Assembly (NCBI GenBank): GCA_018607785.1
Contig: JABBAU010000021.1
Coordinates: 1 to 46,315 of the forward strand
Length of the DNA stretch: 46,315 bases
Direction: 5' to 3'
Origin: Methylobacillus sp.
Lineage (GTDB): Bacteria; Pseudomonadota; Gammaproteobacteria; Burkholderiales; Methylophilaceae
Position 1 is the first letter of the stretch; each line of letters begins with the position of its first letter. Below the pieces are notes generated by a model. That model did no database searches. It had not been told where the DNA came from and saw nothing but the letters and a program-made list of their open reading frames with translations. Below, piece after piece: positions 1 through 2,880 of the stretch. The translations under genes and the position numbers were made by a program.

Positions 1-375
1 GACAGAATAAAGAAAAGATTAATCCATTGGAGACAAGTCTCAATATCAGCCTGTGGACAATCAGGTAGATCAAAAATACCCACCATCAAATCTCCTATTG
101 GGTTTGATCGGTTTGTAGAGGGAATAACAACAAATTCACTTAATTTATTGCTTCACCCTGATAACTCAAAAGAATCAAGTAATCTCCCAAATAAATATTC
201 TGGAGATATTAATATTTTTATTGGTCCGGAAGGTGGCTTCAGTCAAGATGAAGTGTTGCTTCTTAAAAAGCAAAATTGTATCAATATTCAATTAGGGTCA
301 CGAATCTTGAGAACAGAAACAGCACCTTTAGCAATAATTGCAATATTACAATATAAATATGGTGATTTTGCATAA
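1..375 (+). CDS. rsmE: 16S rRNA m3U1498 methyltransferase RsmE, 3' part only
   Basis: Frame 1 is open from the first base to the TAA at 373-375, giving about 124 C-terminal residues; the start lies outside the window. RsmE uses S-adenosylmethionine to methylate N3 of U1498 in 16S rRNA within the 30S subunit. The fragment shows the SPOUT-family C-terminal half: a WRQVSISACGQSGR segment near the left edge (family: W-ACEQ-GR), then IGPEGGFS, then LGSRILRTETAPLAI, which form the knotted SAM-binding site. It lies 54 bases upstream of argA on the same strand. The gene appears intact as far as it can be seen. Confidence 0.93.
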   Translation, partial: DRIKKRLIHWRQVSISACGQSGRSKIPTIKSPIGFDRFVEGITTNSLNLLLHPDNSKESSNLPNKYSGDINIFIGPEGGFSQDEVLLLKKQNCINIQLGSRILRTETAPLAIIAILQYKYGDFA

Positions 376-390
376 TTATTTGATTATTTT

Positions 391-398
391 GGTATAAT
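391..398 (+). promoter_or_regulatory. Extended -10 promoter element for argA
   Basis: The 54-base gap after rsmE holds a consensus TATAAT at 393-398, with a TG just upstream forming an extended -10 (TGGTATAAT, 390-398). A weak -35-like TTGCAT lies at 368-373, with long spacing. Transcription would start near 405, giving argA a leader of about 25 nt or less. Seen by eye only. Confidence 0.5.
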
Positions 399-408
399 AT
401 ACGAGTTT

Positions 409-422
409 AAATAAATTTATTT
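409..422. promoter_or_regulatory. Perfect 14-bp palindrome at the argA start, candidate operator
   Basis: AAATAAATTTATTT is a perfect inverted repeat lying just after the predicted transcription start and overlapping a possible TTG start codon at 421. The downstream protein carries its own XRE DNA-binding domain, so this would be a natural place for autoregulation. Binding is inference, and a 14-bp AT-only palindrome can occur by chance in such AT-rich DNA. Confidence 0.3.
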
Positions 423-429
423 GCAAAAT

Positions 430-1971
430 ATGCAAAATAATGTAGGCAATATCATTAGGCAAAAACGCAAAGAAATGGGTTTGACGTTAGGTGCGTTAGC
501 TAAAAATTTACAAATCAGCGTAAGCAATCTTTCAAGGATAGAAACAGGCTCTTTGAAAGTATCAACAAATCTAATAAATCAGTTAGTAGTTTTTTTTAAG
601 GTATCTCCTCAATTTTTTTTTAATCAACCATCTGCTGGTATTTTAAATACCTCATCCCAAAGTTCTTTTGTAGAGAATTTAAGGTTATCTGCTAAATATA
701 TTAGTCAATTTAATCAAAAAGTCTTTGTTATTGGGATAAGTGGGCACGTTTTCAATGACGGACAATTTGAAAATATTGCAAAGGACATTAATCTTCTACA
801 CTCACTTAATATCAAAGTAATTCTCGTCTATGGGGCTAGGCCCCAAGTAGAGGCTATCTTAGTAAAAAATAAGATTCCAATAAGGCTTGTACAAAATATG
901 CGAGTTACAAGTAAATCTGCTCTAAGTCATATTATTGAAGTTAATGGTGCTATGCGAGTTAAAATTGAAGCAACATTATCAACTATAAAACCCTTCACTG
1001 AAGGAATGCAACTTTCAAGTGGTAACTTTCTTACAGCAATGCCTGCAGGAGTTATTGATGGTATTGATATGGAGGCTACAGGGAGAGTTCGAAACATTGA
1101 TATAAATGCTATAGAAAATAAATTAAATCATCATGAAATTGTTATTGTCTCCCCTATTGGTTACTCTCCAATTGGGCAGATATTCAATTTATCTTATGAA
1201 CAAACTGCTGCAAATATTGCTGCTGCTATTGGAGCGGATAAGTTAATATACTATGTCGATGCAAATGGTATTCTTAATGAGAGAGGCGAGTTAATACCTG
1301 AATTGACTTCAGAAAAGGCTCACAAACTAATTTCTCATATTGAAGAAAAAACTTCCCCCGAAGCTGCACAGAATTTATCTTATGATGATTTCAATATCTT
1401 AAAAAGTAGTTTATTTGCAATCAAGAATAAAATTAAAAAAGTCCATTTAATAAACAGGCATATTGATGGATCTCTTATTGAAGAACTTTTCACCGAAAAA
1501 GGTTCTGGCACTATTTTTACAGAGTTTGCATTAGAGAACTTTAGAAAAGCAACCGAAGGGGATATAAAAGATATTTATAGAATTTTATCTCTCTTTGAAA
1601 AGAAAAAAATACTTGTAGAAAGAGATTTGCCACAAATAAAAAATAGTATCGAACATTTTTATATTCTTGAGCATGACAAAAAATTTGTAGGTTGTGTTTC
1701 ACTTAACCCCTATAAAGAGGGGCTGGAACTCGCAAGTTTTGCTATAGACAAAAATTATCAAAAACTAGGTTTTGGCAAGAAATTACTTAAATTCTGTGAA
1801 CTGGAAGCCTTGAAGCTTAAATATAATGAAGTTTTTATTCTTACAACACAATCAGAACATTGGTTTGCTGAAAACGGCTTTAGGGAAAAATCAAAAGATT
1901 TAATGCCTGCACTTAGGAAAAAAACTTACCAATCTAAACGAAATTCTAAATACTTAACTAAAAAGCTATAA
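430..1971 (+). CDS. argA: N-acetylglutamate synthase fused to an N-terminal XRE helix-turn-helix domain
   Basis: This enzyme makes N-acetylglutamate from glutamate and acetyl-CoA, the first step of arginine synthesis, in the cytoplasm. Counting from a possible TTG start at 421, residues about 8-67 are a clear XRE/Cro-type domain (IRQKRKEMGLTLGALA, then VSNLSRIETG). From about residue 82 the protein aligns by eye with E. coli ArgA over its full length: the amino-acid kinase-like domain (DINLLHSLNIK, VYGARPQ, SSGNF) and then a GNAT acetyltransferase (RKATEGDI, AIDKNYQKLGFGKKLL, LTTQSEHWFAENGF). E. coli ArgA is about 443 aa with no HTH; this protein is 513-516 aa. ATG 430 is preferred; TTG 421 is possible, because a 9-base tandem repeat (422-439) duplicates the start region. 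Neither start has a clear ribosome binding site. argB follows 36 bases on. Confidence 0.92.
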   Translation: MQNNVGNIIRQKRKEMGLTLGALAKNLQISVSNLSRIETGSLKVSTNLINQLVVFFKVSPQFFFNQPSAGILNTSSQSSFVENLRLSAKYISQFNQKVFVIGISGHVFNDGQFENIAKDINLLHSLNIKVILVYGARPQVEAILVKNKIPIRLVQNMRVTSKSALSHIIEVNGAMRVKIEATLSTIKPFTEGMQLSSGNFLTAMPAGVIDGIDMEATGRVRNIDINAIENKLNHHEIVIVSPIGYSPIGQIFNLSYEQTAANIAAAIGADKLIYYVDANGILNERGELIPELTSEKAHKLISHIEEKTSPEAAQNLSYDDFNILKSSLFAIKNKIKKVHLINRHIDGSLIEELFTEKGSGTIFTEFALENFRKATEGDIKDIYRILSLFEKKKILVERDLPQIKNSIEHFYILEHDKKFVGCVSLNPYKEGLELASFAIDKNYQKLGFGKKLLKFCELEALKLKYNEVFILTTQSEHWFAENGFREKSKDLMPALRKKTYQSKRNSKYLTKKL

Positions 1972-2007: not shown

Positions 2008-2880
2008 ATGACCCCAAACGAAAAAGCAAAAATATTGAGTGAAGCACTTCCTTATATAAAGAAGTTTTCCAAAAAAATCATAGTCATTAAGTATGGTGGT
2101 AATGCCATGATTGATGAAAACTTAAAACATTCGTTTGCAAAAGATGTCGTGCTTTTAAAGTTGGTTGGCATGAACCCTATTATTGTCCATGGAGGGGGTC
2201 CTCAAATAAATAAAAATTTAGATTCTATTGGTAAAAAAGGTGAATTTCATAATGGCATGAGGATAACTGATAAGGCAACGATGGGAGTAGTTTATGAGGT
2301 TCTGAACTCAATTAATTTAGAAATTGTAGAATTGATTAAAGAAAATGGTGGAGATGCATCTAGCCTCTCAGAGAAAAAATCACTTGGGTTTATTAAATCA
2401 AAAAAATTACTCCTTGATGACAATAAATCAGAAAATAATAATGTTGATCTAGGCTATGTTGGAGAAATAGAAAGTATCGATGAAAAATTTATAAATAGTT
2501 TTATTACAAATAAATCAATACCTGTCATCGCACCCATCGGAATAGGACAGGATGGTCAAGTTTATAATATAAATGCTGATGTTGTTGCAGGCAAAATTGC
2601 TGAAGTAACTAGCAGTGAAAAATTAGTTCTTATGACCAATACAAAAGGTGTTCTTGATAAGAATAAAAAATTAATTACTGGAATTAAAGCTGATGAAGTA
2701 GATGGTCTTATCAAATCAGGTATTCTTTCAGGTGGCATGTTACCTAAAATTCAATCAGCTGTTCATGCCGCAAAAAGCAAAGTAAATAGTGTGCATATAA
2801 TTGATGGCAGAGTCGAACACGCACTGCTTCTTGAAATTTTAACTGATCAAGGTGTAGGTACCCTCATTAAATCTCACTAA
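2008..2880 (+). CDS. argB: Acetylglutamate kinase
   Basis: ArgB phosphorylates N-acetylglutamate with ATP, the second step of arginine synthesis, directly after the ArgA reaction. The 290-aa protein is of normal length. It shows the amino-acid kinase N-terminus VIKYGGNAM, the substrate loop VHGGGPQI, the segment GMRITD, and the C-terminal SGGMLPKI and [16 protein letters not shown] with GVGTLI. It starts 36 bases after argA with no visible promoter between them, so the two are probably co-transcribed. No Shine-Dalgarno sequence stands out before the ATG. Confidence 0.97.

Follow-up and report, generated by a model that had tools for sequence, protein, structure and literature searches.

The fused gene and its neighbourhood

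One open frame, at positions 421-1971 of the window, by which we mean the whole stretch of 46,315 nucleotides of Methylobacillus DNA analysed here, joins a Cro/XRE helix-turn-helix (HTH) to an E. coli-type N-acetylglutamate synthase (NAGS, ArgA) that is complete. The fusion is confirmed. The architecture, proposed in the initial annotation, is borne out by matches to HTH_3 (34.8 bits, curated cut-off 23 bits) and to NF003641, amino-acid N-acetyltransferase (445.7 bits, cut-off 344), the latter covering residues 78-516 and the whole model; TIGR01890 matches at 393.1 bits (cut-off 202.85). The single open frame given earlier as 421..1971 stands, while its start has to be moved: comparison with relatives makes ATG 430 likelier than the alternative TTG 421, with the stop at 1971. 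The features are as follows.

430..1971, plus strand: xre-argA, HTH plus N-acetylglutamate synthase (profile matches; start from relatives)
454..618, plus strand: Cro/C1 helix-turn-helix, residues 12-66 (PF01381, HTH_3)
517..549, plus strand: presumed recognition helix region, residues 33-43 (lowest column entropy among the HTH 11-mers, 105 sequences)
622..660, plus strand: variable linker, residues 68-80 (highest column entropy)
667..711, plus strand: synthase N-terminal helix, residues 83-97 (alignment to N. gonorrhoeae NAGS)
712..1524, plus strand: amino-acid kinase-like (AAK) domain (PF00696)
1483..1512, plus strand: arginine-site loop ELFTEKGSGT, residues 355-364 (agrees with the published motif E-L-F-T-x-x-G-x-G-T)
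1531..1968, plus strand: GNAT acetyltransferase domain, with the CoA motif QKLGFG at 1759-1776 (profile match and residue check)
2008..2880, plus strand: argB, acetylglutamate kinase (TIGR00761, 212.8 bits, cut-off 151.3)

Residues 33-43 read SVSNLSRIETG in the window and D-x-G-NLSRIERG in the family consensus, and we take them to be the recognition helix by analogy with the 434 repressor. AlphaFold gives a confident five-helix HTH, with helices at pLDDT 70-87; the synthase N-terminal helix is predicted roughly over residues 81-94, at low pLDDT, and the rest of the protein has no useful model. In a fold comparison of the HTH (modelled residues 1-68) the best matches are mostly XRE regulators, and PHROGs labels it with phage-type repressors and transcriptional regulators. 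Two enzymes with HTH-like domains, HppE and MPnS, rank among the XRE regulators in these structural matches.

The argB gene starts 36 bp downstream of xre-argA and is probably co-transcribed with it. An argB-like ORF lies next to argA in 30 of the 34 family loci examined. As argB is the next ORF, operator control at this locus would reach the first two steps of the pathway.

Spread of the fusion and conservation of its two halves

The initial annotation had suggested mapping the fusion in relatives, where the HTH and ArgA parts might turn out to be separate proteins. This is not so: judged by the recognition-helix motif, the two are kept in frame in 113 of 114 Methylophilaceae loci, and in the lone exception, L077, the frame is broken by unknown bases. 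An assembly or gene-calling artefact, for which we found no supporting point, is already refuted by the continuity of the frame through many assemblies, and we give it practically no weight. The family sample of 187 genomes has a match in 178, across all 24 genera, and in each of the 119 genomes with a completeness of 90% or more and a contamination of 5% or less; one relative (L061) is 81% identical. Twelve family matches start late (residues 63-80); when the loci themselves were read, eleven proved to have the HTH, the twelfth being L077.

In samples of the order, class and phylum, the ArgA matches listed from outside the family lack the HTH, in line with the initial annotation. In the order a match was obtained in 191 of 200 genomes, and those listed from other families start at residue 50 at the earliest. 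For the class, with matches in 304 of 369 genomes, all those listed except that of the window start at model position 40 of 206 or beyond, and in the phylum sample (120 genomes, 103 with a match) a start before position 48 is unique to the window's match. In a tree of the ArgA part, from which L001, L025 and L026 are omitted (trimming pattern unmatched), one branch with an SH-aLRT of 100 divides the 113 fused from the 22 unfused rows. Judged from these sequences, the fusion is a family trait with a single origin.

In a subclade of the window's genus (L124-L128, L131, L132) the start of the HTH is shortened and has diverged (MNLKQLRTDRKLTI...DPGNLSKIEQG). Its members retain two of the promoter palindromes described below, 41-43 bp apart.

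Protein conservation was evaluated on an alignment of 105 of the 114 loci; eight have no start by the rule used, and L077 is broken. Mean column entropy is 1.44 in the HTH, 0.48 in residues 33-43, its lowest 11-residue stretch, and 2.89 in the linker. All 105 sequences have Leu37 and Glu41, while Ser38 is found in 104 and Asn36 in 102; position 39 is Arg in 98 and Lys in the remaining seven. Five clade sets (one of them with 4 of 6 sequences) give the HTH a dN/dS of 0.03-0.11, and that of the window-clade linker, a tiny segment, is 2.22. Both the HTH and the synthase are under constraint, and selection on the HTH is purifying.

The HTH might be a structural appendage that does not bind DNA, like the HTH-like domains of some enzymes. 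Such enzymes are found among solved structures (HppE, MPnS), and these two are not known to be regulators. As conservation within the HTH peaks in the exposed recognition helix, and the operator-like sites track the fusion, we consider this reading very unlikely and continue with a putatively DNA-binding HTH.

In the synthase, the arginine-site residues Lys274 and Glu355 are present in 105/105 sequences, as are the active-site residues Arg401, Glu436 and Arg507; Ser509 is present in 103/105, including the window. Where N. gonorrhoeae NAGS has Ser392 as its proposed acid, the window and all 105 sequences have Thr475. The roles of these residues in catalysis, NAG binding and the arginine site are taken from the accessible part of the report on N. 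gonorrhoeae NAGS (PMC4490483). Because both the arginine site and the catalytic residues are intact, arginine is a plausible signal for the fused protein.

Predicted operators at the argA promoter

Upstream of argA, just before the HTH, the family has a promoter palindrome, WWWTGYnWWWWWnRCAWWW, usually in two copies. Recurrent palindromes were apparent on inspection of the upstreams, and this form was obtained by an unsupervised, symmetric motif search in 79 non-redundant sequences out of 112 upstreams (L077 and L094 were dropped and near-copies removed). The motif has an LLR of 2185 and an information of 14.0 bits, compared with an LLR of 888-956 for three shuffles; a control inside the argA ORF gives a fairly high LLR of 1703, which comes from protein conservation. 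In held-out halves, 32/40 and 36/39 sequences exceed the shuffled 95% point, and the first training half learned a somewhat different symmetric motif. Over the whole set the best site exceeds this point in 76 of the 79 upstreams and the second site in 69. The 24 upstreams of unfused argA have no palindrome, with a maximum of 3.8 bits versus a family median of 16.6. Within the same genomes, the per-sequence score is 28.8 for argA upstreams (29 sequences) versus 15.7 for argC upstreams (30). Some members have weak best sites (L005 and L092 8.7 bits, L101 7.4 bits).

In the window the following elements were found.

366..384: remnant of a distal operator, 53 bp upstream of the proximal one, with only the left half-site TTTTGCA left (-3.9 bits)
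390..398, plus strand: TGGTATAAT, likely extended -10 between both operator positions (read in the sequence)
419..437: predicted operator ATTTGCAAAATATGCAAAA, overlapping the start codon (19.5 bits)

The predicted operator contains a perfect 17-bp palindrome (420-436) and tops the 46,297 scored positions of the window, the runners-up having 12.5 and 9.3 bits; in L032-L034 the operator lies at the same place. Positions 366-384 are homologous by spacing to the distal sites of relatives; in the window this distal copy has lost a half, leaving just one good site. A -10 at the place matching 390..398 is present in 32 of 35 aligned relatives; a generic promoter scan reported no plus-strand promoter around this element. 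The second-best site of the window (327-345, 12.5 bits) is located 92 bp upstream of the operator at 419-437, within an upstream open frame that we take to be rsmE-like, and the same spacing occurs in four family loci.

Two sites above 8 bits are found in 89 of the 112 family upstreams. The distance between the centres is 28-32 in 52 pairs, 41-43 in eight, 50-52 in 25 and 92 in four. When the last four are omitted, the spacings of the 85 pairs fit a period of 10.5 bp best (R 0.90; 0.87 at 10 and 11), with only about three independent spacing classes because the loci are related. Of the 35 aligned pairs whose centres are 30 bp apart, 34 have TTG at the position of the -35 and 32 have TAnnnT at that of the -10, with a 17 bp spacer between them. 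This puts the distal site over the -35 and the proximal one over the transcription start, a placement that would have the geometry of repression.

It is from the position of the sites that we infer repression as the sign of the control. The fused protein could instead activate argA, for example at low arginine: XRE proteins can activate, and some activators contact RNA polymerase at the -35, over which the distal site lies. The proximal site, at the transcription start and in the window over the start codon, suits a repressor, and we regard activation as improbable.

The specificity of the sites was assessed by a scan of 26 family genomes with a sequence-only pair model, in which weak sites can be missed because 150 candidates were scored per genome. 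The argA promoter is the top match in 25 of the 26 genomes, 16 of which supplied training sequences. In the ten non-training genomes, two of them close to training members, argA comes first in nine and second in G361. The exact palindrome TTTGYA-N5-TRCAAA is unspecific, with 43 places in 12 genomes, four of them at argA (reversed control, 10). The window's own genome has three further perfect 17-mers, all of them within open frames, with scores of 8.2, 15.0 and 15.5 bits versus 19.5.

The metW 5' end carries similar palindromes in some genera, sometimes paired at 30 or 42 bp (L192:2532-2592, L197:2292-2340, L207:2485-2533, L208:715-775), and many of 30 metW loci (L210-L239) have no good site. 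The downstream metW palindrome overlaps a conserved FALIAKW coding stretch. The metW sites, partly explained by the protein sequence, could mark a second target or be a coding coincidence. These metW sites, together with the perfect 17-mers elsewhere, would agree with the palindromes belonging to another regulator and the fused HTH having other targets. Given that the unfused argA upstreams have no palindromes and that the fused gene itself is the model's top match in nearly every genome, we find this quite unlikely and retain the fused HTH as the candidate reader of the argA sites.

The initial annotation had proposed a trigger enzyme that controls arginine genes. The trigger-enzyme part gains from the operators predicted in the promoter of argA itself. 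A general control of arginine genes finds no support: a site is found in 0/30 argC upstreams (best 4.1 bits) and in 0/30 argF upstreams (best 6.7 bits; 8.6 bits in whole argF loci of 3.7-3.9 kb). A wider arginine regulon is thus unsupported, as judged by argC and argF. For most of the 30 family genomes a further carbamoyltransferase-like protein is listed, which scores under the cut-off for ornithine carbamoyltransferase and is presumably PyrB.

A putative enzyme-repressor and its relation to known systems

We consider it likely that XRE-ArgA is an enzyme-repressor ('trigger enzyme') of its own gene, probably tuned by arginine and acting through the predicted operators. The AAK and GNAT domains would make N-acetylglutamate, and the N-terminal HTHs would be paired through the two-fold subunit contacts of a synthase hexamer. 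The paired HTHs would bind one or two palindromes overlapping the argA promoter and limit transcription of argA, plus that of argB where the two form one operon, as appears to be the case here. A single oligomer could hold two sites that are in phase. Arginine would occupy its conserved site, beside the helix that joins HTH and enzyme, and would probably inhibit catalysis and at the same time shift the HTHs, most simply to tighter repression.

According to the accessible part of PMC4490483, N. gonorrhoeae NAGS is a hexamer in which the N-terminal helices interlace subunits at the two-fold interface, and arginine moves these helices, the hexamer becoming ~20 Å shorter along its axis and the ring ~10 Å wider. 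In the fused protein, presumably also a hexamer, the HTH is attached just before this helix (residues 83-97). The two-fold pairing of the N-terminal helices would bring the HTHs together as a dimer, as required for binding to a palindrome.

We infer arginine as the effector from the conservation of the arginine site. Alternatively, the HTH binds the argA operators and the effector is another one, either by concentration-dependent autoregulation or as a response to glutamate, acetyl-CoA or N-acetylglutamate. The operators and the conservation of the HTH do not reveal the effector, and the long, variable linker between HTH and enzyme may loosen the coupling. The arginine site is fully conserved, and the homologue's helix that follows the HTH position moves with arginine, as far as described in the accessible part of PMC4490483; we judge another effector rather unlikely.

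With arginine as the effector, a more specific picture can be drawn, which we offer tentatively, its chances being somewhat below even. XRE-ArgA would be a feedback device in one polypeptide, in which arginine stops catalysis and repositions the HTH pairs through the interlaced helices, and one hexamer grips two in-phase argA palindromes. A family whose order lacks ArgR would then have turned the first enzyme of the pathway into its own arginine sensor and repressor.

Bacterial arginine control is usually split between a feedback-inhibited NAGS and a separate repressor, ArgR. PF01316 (Arg_repressor) is absent among the fused protein's Pfam matches at E 1 or better, and ArgR has no match in the window's own genome. 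None of 80 family genomes has ArgR above the cut-off, with two weak matches below, and a sample of 100 genomes from the order is without any PF01316 match, with positive control genomes. The idea that the fusion replaced a recently lost ArgR is unsupported, since the order sample is also without it. Arginine control in the order may generally rest on something other than ArgR.

In this family of methanol-consuming bacteria, arginine synthesis starts with an enzyme that has a fused head predicted to bind DNA, and the roles of enzyme and repressor appear united in one protein across the whole family, including streamlined freshwater and marine members. One ligand-driven movement could be read out as both activity and DNA binding. 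The predicted operators, the intact allosteric site and the homologue structure make the idea directly testable. For annotators, the ArgA proteins of Methylophilaceae are likely regulators, and metabolic engineers of Methylophilus-type hosts would gain a concrete switch to remove.

Like E. coli-type NAGS (N. gonorrhoeae, PDB 2r8v), the fused protein has full-length AAK and GNAT domains with the catalytic and arginine-site residues, and phmmer aligns it to this enzyme over residues 78-515 with an E of 2e-69. It adds the XRE HTH and linker in front, with which known NAGS are not described in the accessible parts of the literature. A full-text search, judged by titles and abstract openings and with subscription papers mostly outside it, found no description of a NAGS-HTH fusion.

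The DNA-binding fold is a ribbon-helix-helix in PutA and a winged helix in BirA. PutA, BirA and PepA are metabolic enzymes that also repress transcription, as proposed for XRE-ArgA, which differs from them in its XRE-type head and in that the enzyme is NAGS. PutA and BirA act on the operon of their own pathway, as stated in the accessible parts of PMC6978683 and PMC6245113. ArgR, described in the accessible part of PMC6245113 as hexameric and as binding, together with arginine, to paired boxes at carAB, is a dedicated regulator and not an enzyme, and is not homologous to XRE-ArgA. The XRE/Cro regulator SinR, unlike XRE-ArgA, carries no enzyme. The anatomy and the predicted operators fit the trigger-enzyme class, and XRE-ArgA would be a new architecture inside this known kind, strong by comparative evidence.
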